Source: Bacteroidales bacterium (GTDB lineage: Bacteria > Bacteroidota > Bacteroidia > Bacteroidales > F082). From it: DNA of 64,000 nucleotides. The stretch spans positions 98,657 through 162,656 of the forward strand of contig JAFXLL010000005.1 of the NCBI GenBank assembly GCA_017531225.1, read 5' to 3'. Both the position numbers and the translations under genes were made by a program. Numbering within the stretch: position 1 is the first letter of the stretch; the number at the start of each line of letters is the position of its first letter. Below the pieces are notes generated by a model that saw only the letters and a list, made by a program, of their open reading frames with translations, did no database searches and was not told the origin of the DNA. Shown here piece by piece: positions 18,752 to 32,762 of the stretch.

Positions 18752-21529
18752 TTAATGTAGGTTTCCCACCATCCCCTGATACAACCTAAACAGCTCCGCC
18801 ACGCATTCGCTTTCTTGGAAGGTTGACTTCACAGGGAAGCCGTAGGCTTGCATCACAGCGCGGTCGTTCTCCTGATGAGCACGGCGCAGCTCGGGTGTCA
18901 TGGCCGCTTCGTCATAGAGGTCGGCAAGGCTGCAGTCCGGAAACTTGGCGCGAGCGTCAAGGATGGCTTGCGCCGTCTGCTCAATCTTTGTCTTTTGTGC
19001 TTCAGTAGGATTCGGCCAGGGAAAGTTATTATAGACGATGGTGTTGCTGTATCGATAACGCATTTCCAATCGTCCGCAGACAGCCCGCATCCAAGCATTA
19101 TGTACATTTGAAACCAAGACACCGAAATGATATAACGAGGCCGAAGGTACCACGTTTGCCGAATCATTGCAAATAATGTCCGCTGATACGTAACCTATTG
19201 GAATATATCTTCGGCTCTCCGATGAATGACGTGGAAATAACAGATAGTCAGTTTTTGGCTGCCTACATTCCATGAAGCGAGTCGGGTAATCCGCAAACCT
19301 TCTTGTTGCCTCCTTTGTGCTATTTAATCGCATTTCTCTAACTTTTTCAATGCGTTCCATAACAAGGGGGCATCGTCTTAATTCAGCAGGATTTGCGTCT
19401 TGTAACCATAGACAAAAACGCTCTTTGTTATGGATAAAGTCCTCTGAGCCAACCATTCTTTTGATGAATTGTTTCGCATTGGGATCTCTGCGGACAAAAT
19501 CTTCGTAATCTTTTGCCTCAATAATTAAATTGCCTCCATCGACAGGGCTACTGCCTTTTATCATTTCAGGAACATCGCACAAAGGTTTCTTGCGATTCTC
19601 TATAAACACATCCGGCGCATCCAAGAGATAGCCATTGATATTCTTGGCCTGAATAGGCTGCGCTTCGGAAAGATAGATGATCTTATGGCCAACACTTGAA
19701 GCAACAGAAAAGCCCAAAATCACGCAATGCACATGCGCCTTGATATCTGCCTCACTGTCCCAACGGAAAGTTCGGTAGGCAAAATCAAAGTGAACGCCAT
19801 ATTGCTCAAAGAGCGGCTTCCATATTGCCGCCACTTGCTCGCCCTGGGTGATTGAATTGGTGGAAACAAGAGCGGCTCGGATCTTCGGATTCTGAGCCAT
19901 CATCTCAGCCGATTTGAGATACCAGCCAGCCACATAGTCAATGTTACTTCCAAAGCCCTTCATGATGGCTGCCAGGTCTTCTTTCTGCTCCTTGCTTTGG
20001 TATGCATACTCCACAAACGGCGGATTGCCCATGATATAATCCAGCTTTTCCGCTGGCACCACCTCGTTCCAATCCACCCGCAGCGCATTGCCCTCAACGA
20101 TGTTGGCATAGCTCTTCAGCGGCAGAAAGTCGATGTCATGCTGCACAATCTGTTCCGTCTTGGTCAGCATCTGTGCCTCCGAAATCCACAGCGCGGTGGT
20201 GGCCACCGTCACGGCAAAGTCGTTAATCTCTATGCCGTAGAACTGGTGGATGCTCACCTTCACCGGGCTGGTCTCTTCAAACCCAAGGAACGACTGGCCA
20301 TGATACCGCTCGCGGATAACCTCGTTCTCCAACCTTCGCAAGCTCAGGTAGGTCTCAGTCAGGAAATTGCCGCTACCACAGGCAGGGTCGAGGAAGGTCA
20401 ACGAAGCCAGTTTAGCCTGGTACTCGTCGAGACGGCGTAAGCGCGTCTTTTCCACCTTCTCTTCCAGTATCTCATCCAGCTCGCGGCGTAGGTCGTTCAG
20501 GAAGAGAGGATCTATCACTTTGTGGATATTCTCAATGCTCGTGTAGTGCATTCCGCCGCTGCGCCTTGTTTCAGGGTTCAGCGTACTCTCAAACACAGCA
20601 CCGAAGATGGTCGGCGAAATCTCGCTCCAATCGAAGTCAAGGCTTGCGTTCTGGAGCAGCGTCTGTTTCAATTCCTCCGTAAACTGCGGAATTTCAATCG
20701 CCTCTTCAAACAGGCCTCCATTGGTATAAGGGAAGGCCTTCAAGTCTTCTTTCAGATACTTGCTGCGTTTCTCCAGAGGTGTATTAAGTACATTGAAAAG
20801 CTTCAGAAGCGCATCGTTGAGGTCTTCTGCATTATAGCCATTGAGGTAGTCGTGGAACTGGTCGTGCCGGAACACTCCAGCATCCTCGGCATAGAGGCAG
20901 AACACAATTCGAACGCACAGGATATTCAGCCAGCGCAACGCCTCAGGGGAATTATCGTCATACTGCTTCAGCAAAGCTTCGTAGATTCTGCCGACAATCT
21001 CTCCGGCTTTCATCGAGACCTGCATCTCCTTGGTGATGTGTTCGCTCTTCACATCGACGAGGAACTGGAGGCGATAGTATTCCTTGCCCAGGTCCTTCAG
21101 GAAGATCTGCTCAGGCTCACCATTAGGCTGCTCCATGTCATAGACCAGGAACTCCGCGAAGTTGCACGTCACAATCCACTTCGGATGCTGGGAGAGGGGC
21201 ATGTTGGCCACATACTTCTTTGCCTGTTGGAACGGTGTGAGCTTGCCGCCCTCGCTTTGCGGCACAGGTGCCCGCAAATCCTTGTCGATGGATTTCTGCT
21301 CGATGAGCACCCTCGTCGATGGGATATGGCCATCGATGAAGTTGGTGGAATCCACCATGCTGCTCACTCGCTCTTCGTAGCGAATGAAATCAGGCAGGTT
21401 TTCCACGCCATAGACATTTGTAAGCAGGTCAGCCCAAAACAGCTGGGACTCACCCCGTTCATATCCTCTTCCTTGCCATCTTTCGGCAAACGCGGCAGCC
21501 GCCGCAGCAATTTGTTTCTCCGTTTTCAT
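18752..21529 (-). CDS. MmeI-like type IIL restriction-modification enzyme
   Basis: A 925-aa single-chain R-M protein, close to MmeI in length. The N-terminal endonuclease has D66 and the E77-Q-K79 triad (IEQKS), matching the D...ExK of MmeI. A helical spacer is followed by the N6-adenine methyltransferase with motif I DPACGSGNFL (381-390) and motif IV NPPF (502-505). Beyond about residue 620 lies the target-recognition domain and a C-terminal helical region. One protein would cut and methylate, with specificity set by the TRD. The frame appears intact. Confidence 0.85.
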   Translation of the reverse strand: MKTEKQIAAAAAAFAERWQGRGYERGESQLFWADLLTNVYGVENLPDFIRYEERVSSMVDSTNFIDGHIPSTRVLIEQKSIDKDLRAPVPQSEGGKLTPFQQAKKYVANMPLSQHPKWIVTCNFAEFLVYDMEQPNGEPEQIFLKDLGKEYYRLQFLVDVKSEHITKEMQVSMKAGEIVGRIYEALLKQYDDNSPEALRWLNILCVRIVFCLYAEDAGVFRHDQFHDYLNGYNAEDLNDALLKLFNVLNTPLEKRSKYLKEDLKAFPYTNGGLFEEAIEIPQFTEELKQTLLQNASLDFDWSEISPTIFGAVFESTLNPETRRSGGMHYTSIENIHKVIDPLFLNDLRRELDEILEEKVEKTRLRRLDEYQAKLASLTFLDPACGSGNFLTETYLSLRRLENEVIRERYHGQSFLGFEETSPVKVSIHQFYGIEINDFAVTVATTALWISEAQMLTKTEQIVQHDIDFLPLKSYANIVEGNALRVDWNEVVPAEKLDYIMGNPPFVEYAYQSKEQKEDLAAIMKGFGSNIDYVAGWYLKSAEMMAQNPKIRAALVSTNSITQGEQVAAIWKPLFEQYGVHFDFAYRTFRWDSEADIKAHVHCVILGFSVASSVGHKIIYLSEAQPIQAKNINGYLLDAPDVFIENRKKPLCDVPEMIKGSSPVDGGNLIIEAKDYEDFVRRDPNAKQFIKRMVGSEDFIHNKERFCLWLQDANPAELRRCPLVMERIEKVREMRLNSTKEATRRFADYPTRFMECRQPKTDYLLFPRHSSESRRYIPIGYVSADIICNDSANVVPSASLYHFGVLVSNVHNAWMRAVCGRLEMRYRYSNTIVYNNFPWPNPTEAQKTKIEQTAQAILDARAKFPDCSLADLYDEAAMTPELRRAHQENDRAVMQAYGFPVKSTFQESECVAELFRLYQGMVGNLH

Positions 21530-22767: not shown

Positions 22768-23835
22768 TCAATACTGCATTGCCTGTATCTCATTAAAATA
22801 ATAGAATGCCTCCGGATGGGTCTTCTTCAGCTTGTTGAGCTTCGTCGGCATGGGCTGTTGAAGAACCTGGTCTGTCAGCTCAACCAACAAGTTGGGGTTG
22901 TAATGGTGTATTTCGTTGCGACCTTTTTCAATGAGTTTGCTCAGGTAGGCAGCTTTGGCAGCATTCACAATGGCTGAGTCAAGAGTGTATTTTCCGCCTA
23001 TCATAAAGCCACCTATCCGATTGATGCCGTCTTGCAACAGCTTGTATTCATCAGGGTTTTGCAGACCTCTCAAGCAAATGCAAATGGCCGTCTGATAAAT
23101 GTCATCAAGTACCTGCTGAATGTTATCGGGGTTCTGGTGGCGATATTGGAGCTCTATCGCTGCAAATTTTGCAAAGGTCTCTCGGGTAGTGGCAAGTTCA
23201 TCGGTGATATCGAACAAGGAGGCTATGTCAAATAGTTGCTTGATAATCTCCATCGAACACTTTTTTTCTCCTTTGAAATACGGAATGCCGGTGGTATGCG
23301 GCGCAAAAGCGGTCAATTTATCACCCAACAAATCCTCATGGCTTGGCAAATTGATCATGACCATAGGCTCATCCGTAATAAGCACAGGGCTTTGAATGGG
23401 CAACGATACAATCTTTGAATAGTGCGTTTCCTCAAAGAGTACGTCCAAAAGGATTTTGTCTTGTCCGCCATTGCCAGGATAACTCACTTCATAATAGAAC
23501 TTGGCATGTTGTTTCGGCACGTCCGTCCGAGATATCCGTGCAACAAGTTCCACTTTACCAAAACCATATTCTTCTGCATATTGGCCAAGGTAGTTCTCAA
23601 TCACTGTACCAGGGGGACAAATGATGTCGATGTCAATCGACAAACGTTTGCTGGTGTTCAGGTGAAGCATGAGTGAGCTGCCGCCTTTAAATAGGAAGGG
23701 ACAGCCGGAACGCCCCAATGCTTCAAGAAGCGAGAAGGCGCGGATGGTCTTCTCAACCAAGGCGATATCGTGAACGCCCAAACGATGGGCGGCTTCTGTA
23801 ATCCATTCAAGGGATCTACTCTCCGGATTGATCAT
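22768..23835 (-). CDS. AbiEii/AbiGii-family nucleotidyltransferase toxin
   Basis: A 355-aa toxin of the AbiEii type, a DNA-polymerase-beta-like nucleotidyltransferase. The FKGGSSLMLHL motif is at 49-59 (GGS 51-53) and the catalytic aspartates D68 and D70 are in RLSIDIDIICP. Members of this family (AbiEii, MenT) block growth by modifying tRNA or another target, aborting phage infection. It overlaps the antitoxin gene upstream by 20 bp, the arrangement expected of a type IV toxin-antitoxin pair. Both frames are intact. Confidence 0.85.
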   Translation of the reverse strand: MINPESRSLEWITEAAHRLGVHDIALVEKTIRAFSLLEALGRSGCPFLFKGGSSLMLHLNTSKRLSIDIDIICPPGTVIENYLGQYAEEYGFGKVELVARISRTDVPKQHAKFYYEVSYPGNGGQDKILLDVLFEETHYSKIVSLPIQSPVLITDEPMVMINLPSHEDLLGDKLTAFAPHTTGIPYFKGEKKCSMEIIKQLFDIASLFDITDELATTRETFAKFAAIELQYRHQNPDNIQQVLDDIYQTAICICLRGLQNPDEYKLLQDGINRIGGFMIGGKYTLDSAIVNAAKAAYLSKLIEKGRNEIHHYNPNLLVELTDQVLQQPMPTKLNKLKKTHPEAFYYFNEIQAMQY

Positions 23836-24559
23836 GGTTAATGGTGTTAAGGATTCGTTCTACTTGTTCTTTACGGTTGCGGCGAGAGGCATAGCGCAGC
23901 AGCTTGCTCTTGTTGACATTAACACGGTTACATACATCTTCAAAGATATAGTAAATTTCAGAGCCACTGGTATAAAATAGTTCATTGTCGCCTACGGCAT
24001 CCACTAGGATTTTCTCTATGCGAGGCACAATGCAGCCTTCTACTAGTGTCAATGGCGATTGGCCTATCAGCAAACGCACTACAATGGCGTCTGTTCCTGT
24101 CAGATAGCGTTCACATTCTTGGGCGGTCGGGGCTAGAAGAATGTTTCGTCCGAGATTCATGTTCTGTAAGGCATGAAAAACGGCTTCCATGCCATCTTTC
24201 TCAACATCCACAAAGGTATAGCCGACATTGGGAACATGAAGCATGTACGATGATAGAACCTTTGGACTCCAAATGCAAAACTCAAGAAAAGGGAACTGCT
24301 TCTTCAGATTTTGAAAAATTTCTTTCTCGGTTTCTGAAGGGTGGTACACAAAATCAGGCAGGCTTTCCCCCGTTAATTGATATTCTCCTCGGCCTTTGCG
24401 CATAAGTCTGCCAGATGCAATCAAGCGGCTTATCTGCAAATCCACTGCTCTTACCTTTATTGAGGTTTGTTCACCGGCAATCTCTTGCAGTAACTCTTTC
24501 CTTAGGAAGGTTCCACCATGGGCAGCTGCATAGTTCAGTATGTTTTCAGTCGTTGTCAT
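23816..24559 (-). CDS. AbiEi-like antitoxin / autorepressor
   Basis: A 247-aa protein with an N-terminal winged helix (about 5-65: VRAVDLQISRLIASGRLMRKGRGEYQL) and an AbiEi-like C-terminal domain. AbiEi proteins neutralise AbiEii and repress their own operon. An inverted repeat at 24589-24621, close to the -7 element, is the likely operator. Alternatively it may be classed in one of the DUF6088/DUF6577 relatives; the context with AbiEii favours the antitoxin role. Confidence 0.75.
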   Translation of the reverse strand: MTTTENILNYAAAHGGTFLRKELLQEIAGEQTSIKVRAVDLQISRLIASGRLMRKGRGEYQLTGESLPDFVYHPSETEKEIFQNLKKQFPFLEFCIWSPKVLSSYMLHVPNVGYTFVDVEKDGMEAVFHALQNMNLGRNILLAPTAQECERYLTGTDAIVVRLLIGQSPLTLVEGCIVPRIEKILVDAVGDNELFYTSGSEIYYIFEDVCNRVNVNKSKLLRYASRRNRKEQVERILNTINHDQSGE

Positions 24560-25553: not shown

Positions 25554-25705
25554 AGGGCGCGTCCCCCGGCGGCAGCGGCAGTGAGTCGGGTAGGGTAGAG
25601 GTGTCTCGTAGCCGCCGGCGGTCGGGCTTTCCGGGGATCGCTTCGCTCCGTGCTCCGTTGCACTCCGCGCCAAGCCCCTCCAATCCTTCGCGCGCTGCCA
25701 ACCCC
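25554..25705. repeat. GC-rich dispersed repeat, copy A
   Basis: Begins GGGCGCGTCCCCCGGCGGC, contains GCCGCCGGCGGTCGGGCTTT and ends near CAAGCCCCTCCAATCC. It shares these blocks with copies at 26958 and 32571 but its interior is diverged. No coding potential of its own; frames through it are low-complexity. Confidence 0.8.
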
Positions 25706-25726
25706 TCCGGGGCCGGCGCTCTTCTT

Positions 25727-26221
25727 TCAATCTTCCTCCTGCGGATGGAATCGTCCTTCGATGCCTGCCAAGGGATAGTTTTCCATCCAACCTTGGTCAA
25801 CGTAGGGAAGCATGCTGAAACGCTGGGCATGAAGGTTCAGCTCGGGGAACTCATTAGTAACGAAGGCATGCAACGACTTGGCCTTGACGTTTTGCTCGGC
25901 CTTGACTTCACAAGGGAACACCTGTCCGTCGTACTGAACCAGAAAATCTATCTCGAGAGTGGAGTTGTCCTTGCTGTAGTAATAGGCAGGGATACCACCT
26001 ATACCAACGAGTTCCTGCAGGAAGTAACTCTCGGTGAAGGCTCCCTTGAACTCAGTGAAGGCATTGTCACCAAGGAGCATGTCCTGCAGACGTGCCTCGG
26101 ACATGAGTGCCAGAAGGCCGCAGTCGAGCATGTAAATCTTGAAGGCATCATTGTCCTTATAGAACTTGAGAGGATATTTTGGCGTGGAAACGCGACAGAT
26201 TTTGTAGTATTCCGGCAGCAA
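25727..26221 (-). pseudogene. Truncated DUF4143 AAA-type ATPase C-terminus
   Basis: The 164-residue frame LPEYYKICRVSTPKYPLKFY ... FLVQYDGQVFPCEVKAEQN is the C-terminal DUF4143 portion of the ATP-binding proteins common in Bacteroidales, which are normally about 380-400 aa. The whole AAA domain (Walker A/B) is missing. The frame begins directly after a set of 32-bp-spaced repeats, as if a deletion joined promoter DNA to the gene middle. Confidence 0.7.
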
Positions 26222-26225
26222 AAAT

Positions 26226-26308
26226 ACACTTTTATGAGGGAATAAACAAACAAACCAACATTTTTATGAGGGAATGTTTTAAAGAAAATACATTTTTATG
26301 AGGGAATA
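26226..26308. repeat. Three 19-bp repeats at exact 32-bp spacing
   Basis: ACAYTTTTATGAGGGAATR occurs at 26226-26244, 26258-26276 and 26290-26308, with unrelated 13-bp spacers. The 32-bp period is close to three helical turns. They lie just upstream of the truncated ATPase gene and are likely its regulatory sites. Confidence 0.7.
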
Positions 26309-26366
26309 TCCCCAGCCCCACCCCGCAATAATGCTTTTCACCAGCAACGAGCATGATGAACCTATT

Positions 26367-26912
26367 CTATAAAGCTTTCAACTTCTTGCATCCGCTCAGA
26401 TCTCCAAACCCGTTCCCTTGATAATGAAAAACCAGAACATCTGGGACTATGTTCGATGGAGCGTTTGTTGGCTGTCTTTTCCATACCGACGCCTCTGTCG
26501 GCTTCCACCATTCGTTGATCACAAACACATCCTTTGCTGGAAACAGCGTGTTGGTGGCGTTTAGGACGTTTCTTTCCCCAACAGCATCGGCCAAACTGGC
26601 TGTGATGATCTTCTCGGCAAGGAATATCTGTTTCCTTGTGGGTCGCTTCACATTTGCCAACTGCCCGACATAGATGGAATTCAACCGTTCCTCGATTTCC
26701 TGTATATGGTGCCCCTTATCCGTCAGTCTTTTGTAAATATGACGAATCGACATACCACAATAATATCTCTCCCTTGTCTTAGCATACTTCAGTTTTCCAT
26801 GTAGGAGATACAATGAACATTTTGTCTCTTTATGCTCCTTCTCCCATTGCTCTACTCTTTCAGTACAGTCAAAAGGGCCGTACCACTTAATCAGAAAAAC
26901 GTTATTCTCCAT
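26367..26912 (-). CDS. GIY-YIG-like protein, unknown
   Basis: A 181-aa protein. Segments FLIKWYGPF, LYLLHGKLKYAKTRERYYCG and MSIRHIYKRLTDKGHH recall the GIY-YIG nuclease core (two tyrosines, Gly, then Arg/His), and a charged helix region follows with ARKQIFLAEKII-like sequence. The match is weak and catalytic residues are not certain. The start at 26912 is chosen because a TAAATTTG -7 element lies 25 bp upstream. It is flanked by copies A and B of the GC-rich repeat. Confidence 0.5.
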   Translation of the reverse strand: MENNVFLIKWYGPFDCTERVEQWEKEHKETKCSLYLLHGKLKYAKTRERYYCGMSIRHIYKRLTDKGHHIQEIEERLNSIYVGQLANVKRPTRKQIFLAEKIITASLADAVGERNVLNATNTLFPAKDVFVINEWWKPTEASVWKRQPTNAPSNIVPDVLVFHYQGNGFGDLSGCKKLKAL

Positions 26913-26944: not shown

Positions 26945-26957
26945 ATAAAATTTCCTT

Positions 26958-27110
26958 TGGGCGCGTCCCCCGTCGGCCAGCTCTGTTTTGTCATTGAGTG
27001 GCAGCATCACTTTGGCCGCCGGCGGTCGGGCTTTCCGGGGCTCCGCTTCGCTCCGGTGCTTTTTTCAAAAGCACCAAGCCCCTCCAATCCCTCGCGCGCT
27101 GCCGCACCCT
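26958..27110. repeat. GC-rich dispersed repeat, copy B
   Basis: About 150 bp from GGGCGCGTCCCCCGTCGGCC to CGCGCGCTGCCGCACCCT. Its first 105 bp differ from copy C by about one base; the centre has a short hairpin GTGCTTTTTTCAAAAGCAC. It is in the same orientation as copy C 5.6 kb away. Confidence 0.85.
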
Positions 27111-27197
27111 ACCAATGTCCCACCCCGCACTATCCCTGCTGGTGGCCAACCACAAAAAATATTTTACATTGTGCAGCGATTTGGCATAAGTTCTCTT

Positions 27198-27205
27198 TAA
27201 CTTTG
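27198..27205 (+). promoter_or_regulatory. -7 promoter element TAACTTTG of the Nmad operon
   Basis: TAACTTTG 26 bp upstream of the start at 27231; likely the promoter for the four-gene run to 29757. Confidence 0.55.
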
Positions 27206-27230
27206 TACCGTAAAAACAATACATAACACC

Positions 27231-28250
27231 ATGGAAGCACAGCCATACTCCTTCAACGCCATCTACGACCTCTGCCGTTGTCACTATGAGGACATCCTTA
27301 TGCGCAAACCCTTGAAGCACATTTTGGACAATAGACGTGTACGCTTCATTAATCCCCGAGGAAAATTCGATTATTGCTATTTTGGCGATTTCTATTTCAG
27401 CTCTGGTAACGTGATGATGTTCATCACAAACAGCATCGATTACGTCCGCTACCATCGCCCCGACCAGCTGTCCAACACCCTGTGGTCAACGGTACCGGTC
27501 ATCTTTGCCGGTGTCGAAACCAATGTGTGTGATGACAATGGCAATGCCATTTTCACCTACGACATCTGCGATTTCAGCATGTATGCGCTCATGGTCCAGT
27601 ACATGAGTTTCAATGAGCCTTGCCTCCTGGCCGACAATCACTCGGTGCCGCTCTCATGGGCAAGACAGCATGGAGGCTTCCGCAAGTCAGGCACCGCCTT
27701 CTACGATTTGAGCAAAGACCTGTTTGAGGCCTTCGACCAGTATGCCATCTGGAACATCAACCAGTACGACGATCCCACTGAGCGCCAAAAGGCTTACGCT
27801 GCGCTGAAAGCCCCTATGTTCATCGACGGCCTGCCCGAACCCAACATGAAATGGTCCCGTAGTTATCTGGATATCAACGAAGCATTGGACGAAAACACCG
27901 TGCTTTGCTGCTTCAAGAGCTCCTTCAAGGAAGCCTTTGTTGATGAAGATGGAGAATTTATAGAAGATTATGTACTGTTTGCCAACAACTATCCGGAGGA
28001 CTATACTGGAGAACGCCTTGAAATAGTCATCAATGACGACAACATCGAGCAGCAGGTGACCGATCTCATGCTAAAAGCCCATCGCACTCCAGAGAATGGT
28101 TTTGTCTTGTGCGATTTCTTCGACAACAATGTGTTCTGCGATGAAGACCGCCACACCTATGCCCAATACTTCAAACCCTTGGTGGATTATCACATCCAAA
28201 ACGTAATCATCCCAAACTGGATACTTGAGGAATGGATTAAGGACATTTAG
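27231..28250 (+). CDS. Unknown protein, first gene of the Nmad operon (339 aa)
   Basis: A 339-aa soluble protein of unrecognised family. It is rich in aromatic and acidic residues (RCHYEDILMRKPLKHIL; a run of F/Y residues at about 40-60; IIPNWILEEWIKDI at the end), with no signal peptide, membrane span or obvious nucleotide-binding loop. It is 9 bp upstream of Nmad2, so it is probably part of the same transcript. Its co-occurrence suggests an effector or partner of the Nmad proteins, but that is inference. Confidence 0.7.
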   Translation: MEAQPYSFNAIYDLCRCHYEDILMRKPLKHILDNRRVRFINPRGKFDYCYFGDFYFSSGNVMMFITNSIDYVRYHRPDQLSNTLWSTVPVIFAGVETNVCDDNGNAIFTYDICDFSMYALMVQYMSFNEPCLLADNHSVPLSWARQHGGFRKSGTAFYDLSKDLFEAFDQYAIWNINQYDDPTERQKAYAALKAPMFIDGLPEPNMKWSRSYLDINEALDENTVLCCFKSSFKEAFVDEDGEFIEDYVLFANNYPEDYTGERLEIVINDDNIEQQVTDLMLKAHRTPENGFVLCDFFDNNVFCDEDRHTYAQYFKPLVDYHIQNVIIPNWILEEWIKDI

Positions 28251-28259
28251 TATTAGTGT

Positions 28260-28841
28260 ATGAAAGACAACGGTAAATTTCTCTATTGCTATAAAATGAC
28301 CCATGATACAGGCTTTGCGCCCAATCCCTATCATGGTATACTTACGCTGGCCACTTGCAAGCCCACCATCCGACGTTGCGCCCAAGAGGGTTATTGGATA
28401 TCCGGTTGGACTTCCAACACCGTTCAAGGTAAAAACCAAAAGTTCAACCTGAAGGGTGAACCTCAAAAGTTGATTTACCTTGCATTGGTTTCCAAGAAAC
28501 ACAGCATCGCTGATTACTGGGTTAAGTATCCCCAGAAACGTTCCAAAGGCCTGACGGATTCTGGCGACAACATCTATGAGCCCCTGGCGGATGGCGGATT
28601 CAAACAGCACGATAATGGCGGTGGTCATGGTCCCGACAATAAAGAACATGATTTGAGCGGCCTTTCTGTTCTTGTTTGTGAAGAGTTCTATTATTTTGGA
28701 GTGGAACAAGCATTGCCCGTCGACAAAGACTTTGTCGTACCCCGCTGTAAAAAAATTCCATTGGACGACGACAGAGCTCTGGGTATCATTAACTATGTCA
28801 AAAACCATTTCAAACCAGGAATAAATTCCGTCCCTCTATGA
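28260..28841 (+). CDS. Nmad2-like putative nucleotide-modification protein
   Basis: A 193-aa protein matching the nucleotide modification associated domain 2. The family opening is clear: KFLYCYKMTHDTGFAPNPYHG then ILTLATCKPTIRRCAQEGYWISG. Later parts contain LVCEEFYYFG and a conserved Asp/Lys-rich end. Nmad2 was defined in phage and bacterial base-modification contexts; its reaction is not established. It overlaps Nmad3 by 4 bp. Confidence 0.75.
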   Translation: MKDNGKFLYCYKMTHDTGFAPNPYHGILTLATCKPTIRRCAQEGYWISGWTSNTVQGKNQKFNLKGEPQKLIYLALVSKKHSIADYWVKYPQKRSKGLTDSGDNIYEPLADGGFKQHDNGGGHGPDNKEHDLSGLSVLVCEEFYYFGVEQALPVDKDFVVPRCKKIPLDDDRALGIINYVKNHFKPGINSVPL

Positions 28842-29638
28842 AAATTGTTTTAAGCAGAAAAGGTTTCGATTCGGCCAACGGTAGCCAGCCCAATCCCATC
28901 ATGCCCGATGGGACGCTGCTGTCGCTTCCCATCCCCGACGAAAAGAAAGGCAACAATCCGTTTGGCTCTCTTGTTTGGAACGGCCAAAGTTATTTTGACA
29001 TCATCCATTCTTTGAAACCCAACACGAAGTTGAAATCCGACAGCATGTGCCACCTCGACCCCGATTTAAGAAAAGATGTTCGGGCTAGGGAAAAAGGTTG
29101 GCAGCCCGCCTTTGGCCAAACAGGTACAGCTTTAAAACACCTTCGCAACCACGACGTTACCGTTGGCGACTTGTTTCTCTTCTTTGGCTGGTTCAAACAA
29201 ACTGAAATGAACGACGGTCGTCTGGTGTACAAAAAGGATGCTCCCGACATTCATGCCATATATGGTTATATGCAAATTGGCGGCATTATTGAAGAGCAGT
29301 CCGATATCCCCAAGTGGTTAAAAGACCATCCTCATGCCGACCGCCCAAAAGCTTGGGCCAATCACACCAATGCCATCTATCTCCCCACGAACAAGCTGTC
29401 CTTACTGCCCACTCTCAAAGGCTGCGATGTCCTCGATTATCGTAAGGACAGGGTGTTAACCAAGCCAGGCGTGTCCCGTTGCTATTGGGATTTGCCCGAC
29501 TTCTTTAAAAAAGTTGAAATCACCTACAACCCCAATCCTTGGCGCGATGGCTGCTTCAAATCCACAGGCCGCGGCCAGGAATTCGTGATGGATTCCACTC
29601 CGGAGATTCTTGATTGGGTCAAACATATCATATCATGA
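28838..29638 (+). CDS. Nmad3-like putative nucleotide-modification protein
   Basis: A 266-aa protein with the Nmad3 signature start MKIVLSRKGFDSANG and the PIMPDGTLLSLPIP strand. Further blocks are DPDLRKDVRAREKGWQPAFGQ and VGDLFLFFGWFKQ. Nmad3 is thought to act with Nmad2 and similar proteins on modified nucleotides; the chemistry is unknown. ATGA overlaps join it to Nmad2 before it and the 40-aa gene after it, so the three are tightly coupled. Confidence 0.75.
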   Translation: MKIVLSRKGFDSANGSQPNPIMPDGTLLSLPIPDEKKGNNPFGSLVWNGQSYFDIIHSLKPNTKLKSDSMCHLDPDLRKDVRAREKGWQPAFGQTGTALKHLRNHDVTVGDLFLFFGWFKQTEMNDGRLVYKKDAPDIHAIYGYMQIGGIIEEQSDIPKWLKDHPHADRPKAWANHTNAIYLPTNKLSLLPTLKGCDVLDYRKDRVLTKPGVSRCYWDLPDFFKKVEITYNPNPWRDGCFKSTGRGQEFVMDSTPEILDWVKHIIS

Positions 29639-29757
29639 CGAACATCATCGGGGTTGAGCATAGCCTGGTATATAAGATAATGAGAGAGTTGAAACAGATG
29701 GGTTTCGATATTGCTCCCGTTGAGGACAAAGATGATGAGGATGAGAAAAATCATTAA
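29635..29757 (+). CDS. Small acidic protein (40 aa)
   Basis: A 40-aa frame MTNIIGVEHSLVYKIMREL... ending in an acidic tail (VEDKDDEDEKNH). It starts inside the Nmad3 stop (ATGA) and its stop codon is the first part of the next gene's -7 element (TAACTTTG, 29755-29762). Such placement argues that it is real. It could be an antitoxin-like or regulatory partner; no family recognised. Confidence 0.55.
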   Translation: MTNIIGVEHSLVYKIMRELKQMGFDIAPVEDKDDEDEKNH

Positions 29758-29762
29758 CTTTG
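29755..29762 (+). promoter_or_regulatory. -7 promoter element TAACTTTG of the WYL gene
   Basis: TAACTTTG overlaps the stop of the 40-aa gene and lies 19 bp upstream of the WYL start; it gives the regulator its own promoter. Confidence 0.55.
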
Positions 29763-29780
29763 CCCCAAAAGAACATAGAA

Positions 29781-30692
29781 ATGATAGTCGATAAAATCAG
29801 ACGTTACGTGTGGCTGCTCGATACCATCTATCGTGCCGGTGAGAATGGCATCACCTTCGATGAGATCAACCAGAAGTGGCAACGTTACGATTTGTTGTCT
29901 GAAGGAAGATCTTATCCAAAAAGGACTTTCGAGCAGCACAAGGAAGAGATCCAGCAAACCTTCAGCATTGAAATCTGCTGCGACCGAAAGACCAACCGCT
30001 ATTTCATCAGTGACCGTGAAGAGTTGCGCAACCAGTCACTCATGCTTCGGTGGTTGATCAACACCTTCAACCTCCAAAACATCATTGGCCAAAGCAAGAG
30101 CCTTAAAGACCGCATTGGGCTGGAGGACATTCCTGCTGGCCAGGACCATCTTATCGACATCATCGACCTGATGAACAACAGCTGCACTTTCGACATGGAG
30201 TACCAAAAGTTCTATGCTGACGAAAAGAAGTTCTATCGTAACATGGAACCTTACGGAGTCCACATCTTTCAGCGTCGTTGGTATGTGCTGGCTCGCAACC
30301 CCGAAAACGACACACTTCATACTTACTCCTTGGATCGTGTGAGTAGCTTGAAGAAAAACAGCGACACTTTCAAGATGCCCAAGGATTTCTCAATCAGCGA
30401 TTTCTTCCGCGACTGCTTCGGCATCATCAAGGATGCCGCTCCCAAGCAGCACATCGTTTTAAAAGCAAATGCTTTTCAAGCGAAATACCTCAAAACGCTG
30501 CCACTCCACGAGACCCAGCAAGTCGTTTCCGAAGACGAAAGCTTTACTGTCTTCTCCTACGACCTCTGTCCCACCTACGACTTCAAGCAGAAGGTTCTTT
30601 CCTATATGCGTGATGTGGAAATAATAGAGCCTCAATCATTCCGCAATAATATCATCGAGGAGATTGAGGCTATGAGGAAACTTTACCGATAG
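29781..30692 (+). CDS. WYL-domain regulator
   Basis: A 303-aa protein with an N-terminal winged-helix region (about 5-60) and a WYL domain (about 130-215) containing KFYRNMEPYGVHIFQRRWYVLARN, whose WYV is the name-giving motif. A C-terminal WCX-like extension ends EAMRKLYR. WYL proteins sense nucleic acid or nucleotide ligands and often control anti-phage genes, which fits the Nmad neighbours. Start set by the -7 element at 29755. Confidence 0.8.
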   Translation: MIVDKIRRYVWLLDTIYRAGENGITFDEINQKWQRYDLLSEGRSYPKRTFEQHKEEIQQTFSIEICCDRKTNRYFISDREELRNQSLMLRWLINTFNLQNIIGQSKSLKDRIGLEDIPAGQDHLIDIIDLMNNSCTFDMEYQKFYADEKKFYRNMEPYGVHIFQRRWYVLARNPENDTLHTYSLDRVSSLKKNSDTFKMPKDFSISDFFRDCFGIIKDAAPKQHIVLKANAFQAKYLKTLPLHETQQVVSEDESFTVFSYDLCPTYDFKQKVLSYMRDVEIIEPQSFRNNIIEEIEAMRKLYR

Positions 30693-30725
30693 AGTTTATT
30701 TTGCGATCTAAAACCGCTTGCTGTT

Positions 30726-31430
30726 TCAAATCTTTACATTTAAATAGTTACACAATAAATCCACCTCGTCCGCATCCATTTTCTTTTCCGGATGAATTGT
30801 TAAATATTGGCAGTTCTGGTAAGGACAAACAAAAAGATAATTCAACTTTGTTTCATGCAGAGTCGCAAGAATCCTATCTTCATTATCCTGCACGCCTCTA
30901 ATCTTGTATAACACACCTTTACCCCCGATTTCTACAGGCAACTTTATTTGCTCCAGATCATAACCCATCCATGGGTGTTTGGGGTTGGTGCCATAGTAAA
31001 ATGCCGACGATTTATTCGCATGTATGATGAGCTGTGGTTGCAATCTTTCTATCTCAGCCTGAGTAACACGCAAAATTTCCGCTTTTAACTCCAGTGGCAC
31101 AATCCTCTCAAACTCTGCTTTCTGCTTGCTAACACGCAATGGAAATAAATCGACATATCCAGCTTTGTTATGCGAAAGTGCATGTTGTAAATTTGCTTGC
31201 CATTTTTCCCAATATGTTCCTGTACAATCTCGAAACGCACAGTTCCCTGGTTTGCCATTAGATGGATTTACTCCCGTTAACAATAACCCTTCTTGAGGAT
31301 TATCCAAACACAGCCAAAACCCTCTATCAAGGATTTCTCGAAGGTCGGTGGGAATTACTTTATTATCCTTTAGCCATGCGTTAATTACTTCTTGATATTT
31401 GTTCTGTATCTCTTCCATCATTCGAAACAT
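30726..31430 (-). CDS. Uracil-DNA-glycosylase-superfamily-like protein
   Basis: A 234-aa protein. LLLTGVNPSNGKPG (49-62) resembles UDG motif 1 (GxNPS), followed by YVDLFPLRVSKQ (92-103) and LIIHANKSS (134-142), a layout seen in diverged UDG-fold proteins. The usual catalytic Asp/His pair cannot be assigned. If the fold is right it may bind modified bases, which would fit the nearby Nmad genes. It is convergent with the WYL gene. Start could also be 9 or 12 bp downstream. Confidence 0.55.
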   Translation of the reverse strand: MFRMMEEIQNKYQEVINAWLKDNKVIPTDLREILDRGFWLCLDNPQEGLLLTGVNPSNGKPGNCAFRDCTGTYWEKWQANLQHALSHNKAGYVDLFPLRVSKQKAEFERIVPLELKAEILRVTQAEIERLQPQLIIHANKSSAFYYGTNPKHPWMGYDLEQIKLPVEIGGKGVLYKIRGVQDNEDRILATLHETKLNYLFVCPYQNCQYLTIHPEKKMDADEVDLLCNYLNVKI

Positions 31431-31440
31431 TTGTATTGTG

Positions 31441-31448
31441 CAAATTTA
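31441..31448 (-). promoter_or_regulatory. -7 promoter element TAAATTTG
   Basis: Minus-strand TAAATTTG upstream of the UDG-like gene; nearly leaderless if the first ATG (31430) is used. Confidence 0.4.
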
Positions 31449-31521
31449 CAAACCTCTTATGCAAAACCAAAGCACAAGCTAAAAAATATTACTTCCACAT
31501 TGTTTTCGCACAAGCCTGATC

Positions 31522-31529
31522 TACTTTTG
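31522..31529 (+). promoter_or_regulatory. -7 promoter element TACTTTTG
   Basis: TACTTTTG 26 bp upstream of the start at 31555. Confidence 0.5.
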
Positions 31530-31554
31530 CTCCAAAACCAATTAATAACAGCCC

Positions 31555-32553
31555 ATGAGCATCATAGAATACCTACTCAATAACCAAGATTCAAGCATCG
31601 ACATCATAAAGCACTTGGTCAGCTCCTTGTCAAATGACCAGCTGGTTGAACTGCGTGACCGAACCACCAACGATGATCTTTGGTTCTATGCCGACAAATA
31701 CATCAATCCCAAGCCAACAGAGGATAAGGTAAAAATGGCCAACCCTCCACTTCAGCAGTTGCTTGATACGTTTGCCAACAGCAGAGGCGAACAGTTGAAG
31801 CATGCCAGGCGTGAACTTCAGAAGCGTTTCGATGGGCAGTCGTTTCCCGATCAGGAATCCATCATCGAGGCCTTTATGAAAAAGGGCACGAAAACCGATG
31901 TGGTCTGGTGCTCCAAACACCTCGTCGAGAACTATGCCGAAACAGTGGTTTATCAAGACCAAACCTTCAACGTTTACGGCACGCTGTTTTGGAAGGATGA
32001 GTTTCTCGATGTCGTGAAATACCATTGGGAACGGGACATGGAGAATTATAAATTGCTGAAGGTAATCACCCAATTCGATTCCCCCGAGTATTTAAAGGCG
32101 AAGATAAGGTCAATGGAAAACGATTGCGAGGGAGTTATTGATGGTGTTGCGTATCCCGATCTGCTGCTGAAAGTCTGTGAGAACAGTGACTATCCATTGC
32201 CCAAAGACCGCCTAACACCTTTCCAATATGCATATATCTCTGCCAAAACCAATCGCCAAATCTCCGAAGCAGAGGCAACTGCTGCCATTGCTTGGGCTGC
32301 AGAACACGAAACTTTCTGGCATTCCCATTTTGTTCGAAGCAACAACGGTCGCATTGTATTTCACGATTACAAATTCAGCATCATTGGCCTTGCCCTTTGG
32401 TCGCTTTCCAAGCTCGGCCACACTTCCACTATCATTCGTTTCAACGAATGGATTCTGTCGGTGATAAAAACATTAGAAGCATCCGAATACCTTGATTTCG
32501 CAACCATCGACAACACCATTCAAGAGAATCTGAACGAGTTAAAAGTTTTTTAG
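31555..32553 (+). CDS. Unknown protein (332 aa)
   Basis: A 332-aa soluble, mostly helical protein (MSIIEYLLNNQDSSIDII...). Two regions stand out: KSSLRELQKRF-like charged helices at about 75-100 and TNRQISEAEATAAIAWAAEHE at about 235-255. No catalytic motif or membrane segment is seen. It has its own promoter and sits directly before copy C of the GC-rich repeat, so it is the last gene of the bracketed cassette. Confidence 0.65.
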   Translation: MSIIEYLLNNQDSSIDIIKHLVSSLSNDQLVELRDRTTNDDLWFYADKYINPKPTEDKVKMANPPLQQLLDTFANSRGEQLKHARRELQKRFDGQSFPDQESIIEAFMKKGTKTDVVWCSKHLVENYAETVVYQDQTFNVYGTLFWKDEFLDVVKYHWERDMENYKLLKVITQFDSPEYLKAKIRSMENDCEGVIDGVAYPDLLLKVCENSDYPLPKDRLTPFQYAYISAKTNRQISEAEATAAIAWAAEHETFWHSHFVRSNNGRIVFHDYKFSIIGLALWSLSKLGHTSTIIRFNEWILSVIKTLEASEYLDFATIDNTIQENLNELKVF

Positions 32554-32570
32554 TTCTTTCTTGTTCTTTT

Positions 32571-32762
32571 GGGCGCGTCCCCCGTCGGCCAGCTCTGTTT
32601 TGTCATTGAGTGGCAGCATCTCTTTGGCCGCCGGCGGTCGGGCTTTCCGGGGCTCCGCTTCGCTCCGGTGCTTTGTTCCATTCCACTTCGGTCTGACGGC
32701 TCCCTCCGTTCCATTCCACAAACCACCAAGCCCCTCCAATCCCTCGCGCGCTACCGCACCCT
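32571..32762. repeat. GC-rich dispersed repeat, copy C
   Basis: About 190 bp, near-identical to copy B over the first 105 bp and over the end CAAGCCCCTCCAATCCC...CGCACCCT; the centre has a different insert of about 55 nt with two TTCCATTCCAC motifs. Same orientation as copy B. Confidence 0.85.

Follow-up and report, generated by a model that had tools for sequence, protein, structure and literature searches.

The window analysed here is a stretch of 64,000 nucleotides from a Bacteroidales genome (assembly GCA_017531225.1, contig JAFXLL010000005.1). It holds, at positions 26,958 to 32,762, a group of genes that includes Nmad2 and Nmad3, two families filed under the vague label 'nucleotide modification associated'. 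An earlier note had taken all genes between two copies of a GC-rich repeat in this interval (from here: the cassette) as one unit acting on modified DNA or nucleotides, with a WYL controller and with a UDG-like and a 332-amino-acid (aa) protein as members. Here we describe the cassette, trace its genes through related genomes and weigh what they might do.

Genes and promoters of the cassette

The genes and promoter-like motifs are as follows, with genes without a named family taken from open reading frame (ORF) calls and motifs from a motif scan.

27198..27205, plus strand: TAnnTTTG promoter-like motif before U339
27231..28250, plus strand: U339, a 339-aa protein without a family
28260..28841, plus strand: Nmad2 (PF18753, Pfam), starting 9 bp after U339
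28838..29638, plus strand: Nmad3 (PF18754, Pfam), overlapping Nmad2 by 4 bp
29635..29757, plus strand: p40, a 40-aa acidic protein, overlapping Nmad3 by 4 bp
29755..29762, plus strand: TAnnTTTG promoter-like motif, starting 26 nt ahead of the WYL ATG
29781..30692, plus strand: WYL regulator, ATG start 23 bp after p40
30726..31430, minus strand: 234-aa protein, the 'UDG-like' gene of the earlier note, without profile support
31448, minus strand: TAnnTTTG motif before the 234-aa gene
31522, plus strand: TAnnTTTG motif before the 332-aa gene
31555..32553, plus strand: 332-aa protein without a family

Gene order, strands and overlaps were confirmed in a re-check of the ORFs, and Pfam upheld the named assignments. 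Nmad2 matched PF18753 with an expectation (E) value of 3.8e-36 (124.9 bits, curated cut-off 26.1) and Nmad3 matched PF18754 with E 2.1e-65 (221.2 bits, cut-off 27), while the WYL protein carries a WYL domain (E 1.3e-10) and a WCX domain (E 3.5e-8). Profile searches of the 339- and 332-aa proteins, which had been proposed to place them, yielded no Pfam family at E up to 1, and the same was true for the 234-aa protein. In the WYL ORF the ORF list gives an alternative, earlier TTG start at 29760.

The promoters claimed in the earlier note were found again as TAnnTTTG motifs, the Bacteroidota -7 element, before U339, WYL and the 234- and 332-aa genes. A single motif stands ahead of U339, Nmad2, Nmad3 and p40, which probably form one transcript from one promoter; the 234- and 332-aa genes each have a -7-like motif of their own. 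The 40-aa protein is present as described, but it is the short form of a 57-aa protein that follows Nmad3 in the related loci L021 and L025, as read from the sequences. It travels with Nmad3, with 75% identity at the protein level.

Nuclease profiles matched none of U339, Nmad2, Nmad3 and p40, a result that a divergent nuclease could escape. In PADLOC-DB 2.0.0, the U339, Nmad2, Nmad3, 234- and 332-aa proteins were unmatched at E up to 0.1. The WYL protein matched WYL-type models and one Cas3c model, and weak matches linked p40 to CARF3 (E 0.0062) and the 181-aa protein encoded at 26367-26912, just left of the cassette, to Csm2 (E 0.02).

Nmad2 and Nmad3 form a mobile pair

Among 395 genomes of the phylum, Nmad3 was found in 14 (12 of them above the cut-off) and Nmad2 likewise in 14. 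Both occurred in six genomes, against about 0.5 expected (P 1.5e-6, uncorrected for kinship), and in all six the two genes were adjacent. The pair is therefore genuine beyond chance, as the earlier note had supposed. Presence is patchy also at close range, with Nmad3 in 5 of 49 genomes of the genus, in agreement with the expectation that the gene set varies between strains. Nmad2 was aligned over 11 sequences, and the Nmad2 and Nmad3 profiles showed no kinship.

A set of 27 distinct Nmad3 loci, defined by matches at E under 1e-30 and gathered by several routes, gave the same picture: Nmad2 was adjacent in 15, and a divergent or partial Nmad2 was present in two more (L110, L118). In this set L021 and L025 are counted once, as L076 and L077; L095 and L096 were found by searching for U339, which biases them towards it, and some loci end near Nmad3. 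Left out were L037, L039 and L042 (weak matches), L040 and L041 (no match) and L038, which contains Nmad2 and matches PF18754 but gave no match with our own Nmad3 profile. In L035 and L036 Nmad3 is split over two frames.

Compared with L021, the window has 86% DNA identity in Nmad3 and 59% in Nmad2, and in blocks of 50 nt the identity jumps from 46-59% to 94% at the start of Nmad3. The module moves, then, and is rebuilt gene by gene. Between the window and L078, Nmad3 shows a nonsynonymous divergence (dN) of 0.071 and a synonymous divergence (dS) of 0.644; the gene is under purifying selection. In two further pairs with window genes dS was saturated, and these were not used.

Optional and incidental neighbours

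U339 is a recurring yet optional partner of the pair. In L024, L095 and L096 a homologue sits immediately upstream of Nmad2-Nmad3, and in L023 it is one gene farther away; those of L023 and L024 are 31% identical to U339, and those of L095 and L096 occur in two other families. The family occurs in 9 of 295 genomes of the order. Nmad2-Nmad3 follows in three of these (the window genome, G659, G711) and does not follow in three others (G433, G723, G710); the remainder are contig-end matches (G621, G450) and a weak, broken match (G624). In the phylum sample U339 was present in the window genome only (1 of 395). A 238-aa form stands between Clp and the WYL site in five genomes (L090, L091, L105-L107), with other genes or none behind it, and in L092 a U339 homologue precedes a PDDEXK-like gene. 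Two long homologues carry the A1S_2505 N-terminal domain (NCBIfam, E 1.1e-24 and 1.4e-39), and three show weak YopX similarity below the cut-off (E 0.008-0.024). A single-sequence search of viral contigs with U339 gave no useful match.

WYL is mainly a neighbour of Nmad2-Nmad3 and not a constant member. In 7 of the 27 loci a WYL gene is found no more than 1 kb from Nmad3; a WYL-profile match in L096 (E 1.6e-4) that overlaps a GIY-YIG-like gene was not counted. Six of the seven (L023, L024, L074, L076, L077, L078) share one arrangement, WYL and then an RNase_T exonuclease, in some cases separated by a single gene and, in L024, L074 and L078, with DnaE farther along. This chromosomal type of WYL occurs in 32 of 49 genus genomes (hand count, at least 50% identity over at least 200 aa), with Nmad3 beside it in four. 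In the window genome it lies on a different contig, with RNase_T and without Nmad genes, and is 89% identical to the WYL of L074. The WYL of the window is a different paralogue, one of four in that genome, and is about 37% identical to the Nmad-adjacent WYL of the relatives. A WYL that coevolves with the pair was rejected, and the view of WYL as a dedicated part found no support. The earlier note would have called the unit accidental if Nmad2 and Nmad3 occurred mainly without WYL; this was found for the WYL part, but not for the Nmad2-Nmad3 part.

The position directly upstream of the chromosomal WYL is an exchange slot. In 20 such loci, hand-picked and six of them known beforehand to carry Nmad3, it holds Nmad3 (6), a 281/294-aa protein (3), RhuM/Fic (3), a GIY-YIG-like protein (2), a PDDEXK-like protein (1), U339 (1) or another gene (4). 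GIY-YIG and PDDEXK were matched only weakly, under the curated cut-offs (E 0.0012 to 0.05), and the 181-aa protein left of the cassette had no match to the GIY-YIG-like slot proteins. WYL-RNase_T sites with variable upstream cargo were seen in L062, L074, L078, L090, L091 and L097-L107, and the site is a candidate defence-gene slot of the genus. It offers a route to more candidates, as genes that replace Nmad2-Nmad3 upstream of WYL may act comparably.

The 281/294-aa slot proteins (L090 9249-10094, L097 2471-3355, L107 9165-10010) share an 'ILSLNPGY' motif and look UDG-like by eye. A UDG identity is unsupported, the NPG-type motif being a reading by eye without a profile, PDB-sequence or BLAST link. 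Paralogous genes are shared by two of the WYL loci in the window genome, a 551/543-aa pair (39% identical) and a 228/222-aa pair (27%), at L062 45-1700 and 6585-7271 and at L064 8433-10064 and 11560-12228. The paired genes suggest a duplicated WYL-associated gene set.

The right-hand genes of the cassette fared no better as members of the unit. Neither the 234- nor the 332-aa gene had a match at the related Nmad loci compared. The UDG-like reading of the 234-aa protein found no UDG match in Pfam, NCBIfam or PDB sequences and no BLAST match to plasmid UDGs; its GVNPSN-type motif was read by eye only. One phage record holds a relative of the protein, at 31% identity.

The GC-rich structured repeat has three copies in the window.

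About 25556..25706, plus strand: copy 1, diverged, outside the cassette
26957..27112, plus strand: copy 2
32569..32762, plus strand: copy 3

The two bracketing copies are real, a 115-nt repeat at 26952-27066 and 32564-32678 being 97% identical, but the cassette does not enclose the third, diverged copy. Strong folding was predicted for all three, without a shuffle control, and the repeat had no Rfam match. Among 286 genomes of the order, its 18-base core occurs exactly in the window genome only, in three copies that all lie within 8 kb. With one mismatch allowed, three matches on separate contigs of G591 have the same flank layout, GGGCGC..TCCCCCG or a near variant, followed by GGTCGGGCTTTCCG and then by CTCCAATCCCT. 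The G591 pieces, 1.8-3 kb long, had no Nmad2, Nmad3, U339 or WYL profile match. Other one-mismatch matches had flanks without the layout (G527, G684) or with at most part of it (G706); a reversed control pattern gave two matches in the 286 genomes, and a 28-mer of the repeat was absent from viral contigs. Repeats as borders of the cassette or ends of a mobile unit were rejected on account of the outside copy and the same-layout elements of G591. We read the repeat as a dispersed intergenic element that arrived with this stretch. An empty site was not found in eight congener stretches, where the right flank is non-syntenic, and the PfkB flank was dropped as an anchor for the same reason.

A possible role in recognising modified DNA

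The AlphaFold model of Nmad3 (predicted local distance difference test, pLDDT, 90.4; predicted template-modelling score, pTM, 0.90) aligns best with PUA-like proteins, and its structural neighbours include YTH RNA readers and ASCH proteins. PH1033 and the other plainly titled structural matches are EVE proteins. On this fold prediction Nmad3 would resemble modified-base readers. In sequence it stands apart, with 266 aa, conserved blocks of its own (SRKGFDS, HLDPD, HPH, GQEF) and no match at E up to 1 to the EVE, ASCH, YTH or PUA families of Pfam. W88, H139, H164, H166, Q247 and E248 are invariant. The best hit of its profile among PDB sequences (E 0.46) was to other molecules, and PDB sequence searches with U339, Nmad2, Nmad3 and the 332-aa protein gave nothing useful. 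In L111 (758-2068) and L026 (8001-9221), Nmad3 has long C-terminal extensions, for 436 and 406 aa in total, that are possibly fused parts.

The reading we prefer, tentatively and at nearly even chances, is that Nmad2-Nmad3 is a small, horizontally exchanged module that would contribute modified-DNA or nucleotide recognition to defence against phages or mobile elements. Nmad3, as a divergent PUA-like, EVE-type domain, would probably cup a modified base of foreign nucleic acid, with Nmad2 as its probable partner in recognition or processing and U339 as an optional front module. The pair may in this way help the cell to recognise foreign or altered DNA. A role in defence appears most likely because the module occupies a place also used by nuclease-like and other exchangeable genes. 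Pair formation, patchy distribution, exchange of genes and selection on Nmad3 are observed and the fold is predicted; ligand, partner roles and defence are inferred. The predicted fold match of Nmad3 falls short of decisive, which lowered our confidence slightly. No effector domain, nuclease or other, was found in the module. A bolder form, possible yet distinctly doubtful, makes Nmad3 the founder of a new PUA/EVE-like branch of readers and, together with Nmad2, an autonomous sensor pair, with the WYL-RNase_T site swapping the pair for nuclease-like genes behind U339 or a 177-aa front gene. If true, this would be a modular, previously undescribed locus of modified-DNA surveillance.

Among the rivals, the pair could read modified RNA or DNA of the cell itself, for regulation or housekeeping, and sit in variable regions only since it is non-essential. 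The YTH and ASCH neighbours of the model would suit such a role, and a review of EVE domains (PMC7641849) reports putative operons that combine EVE genes with YafY (WYL) or MarR regulators. Patchy presence, gene-level exchange and the restriction, TIR and toxin-antitoxin-like genes close by in several loci argue against it, and we regard it as unlikely. Less likely still is U339 as the core sensor or effector, with Nmad2-Nmad3 as one of several interchangeable partners. The five genomes with changing or no cargo behind U339 and the PDDEXK-like gene of L092 favour that arrangement, but U339 is rare and is missing nearby in 10 of the 15 pair loci.

A module of phage or plasmid origin, once a counter-defence or base-modification accessory and now a passenger, would account for the Nmad2 and Nmad3 homologues on IMG/VR contigs and for the domain of U339 relatives that bears the name of phage non-structural proteins. 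Yet a set of 50,697 phage records held no match to the window's Nmad2 or Nmad3 at E 1e-3, the one IMG/VR neighbourhood that was profile-tested (L115) has TIR and MazG_C genes as neighbours, and Nmad3 is under purifying selection; we rank this origin lower again. Lowest, and improbable, is the cassette as a whole, from repeat to repeat. Gene order, the compact first four genes, the 23 bp between p40 and WYL and a WYL gene near Nmad3 in seven of the 27 loci speak for it. Set against them are the single chromosomal arrangement behind six of those seven cases, the separate paralogue and -7-like motif of the window's WYL, the failure to find the 234- and 332-aa genes at related loci, and the third repeat copy outside with its look-alikes elsewhere.

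The preferred reading, a mobile recognition module, can be compared with known systems. TIR-Nmad2 loci with MazG_C, HMUDK or UDG belong to the nucleotide-centric conflict systems, a network that Burroughs et al. are said to have predicted in 2015. They share the Nmad2 family with the window but have TIR upstream, where the window has U339 and no TIR match in Pfam, and MazG_C or HMUDK, which a Pfam scan of 15 window genes did not show; in the window Nmad3 is the partner of Nmad2 in place of these genes. EVE/PUA-like readers (THYN1, PH1033, the N-terminal domain of Thermococcus McrB, ASCH, YTH) would share the overall fold predicted for Nmad3, which is longer and has no fused or adjacent nuclease that we found. 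Type IV modification-dependent restriction, such as that by the EVE-HNH enzyme VcaM4I, would share PUA-like reading of modified bases but differs by its endonuclease, for which the U339 to p40 genes gave no profile. WYL-controlled defence loci such as BrxR also have an adjoining WYL regulator, but that of the window is not a constant partner, and the relatives have theirs at a fixed chromosomal site.

NMAD and UDG both occur in a DefensePredictor legend (PMC13092281). In the open-access literature searched, to which the survey was confined, no title or abstract seen concerned the Nmad2-Nmad3 pair or the Nmad3 fold, and 'Nmad' was absent from the EVE review; the families are named, with no activity known in the literature found. 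A unit with a reader-like predicted fold turns their label into a testable question, namely which base is bound.

A TIR gene immediately precedes Nmad2 on plasmids from Parabacteroides, Mesorhizobium, Beijerinckia, Roseicitreum and Gloeothece, as well as on a single IMG/VR contig (L119, L130-L133, L115), several of these loci also having MazG_C, HMUDK, UDG or patatin-type genes. TIR was directly upstream in 5 of the 6 plasmid neighbourhoods opened, and Pfam identified it as ThsB_TIR in both plasmid cases tested and in L115.

To the left of the cassette, two features were identified by Pfam.

18752-21529, minus strand: large MmeI-type restriction-methylation protein, its five MmeI domains all present
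22768-24559, minus strand: AbiEii toxin gene and an overlapping DUF6577/AbiEi-like partner

The AbiEii and DUF6577/AbiEi-like genes probably act as a pair, either in abortive infection or as a type IV toxin-antitoxin system. On the same side lie a DUF4143 fragment and a weak RloB-like one (E 0.005, below the cut-off), and because of these pieces the surroundings resemble a defence stretch in partial decay. Of the proposed modified-DNA unit, what stands is the pair beside MmeI-type and AbiE-like genes, with Nmad3 predicted to be reader-like; WYL and the 234- and 332-aa genes are not supported as parts of it. Three tandem 32-bp units with TTTTATGAGGGAAT lie at 26219-26314, at the end of the DUF4143 gene fragment.

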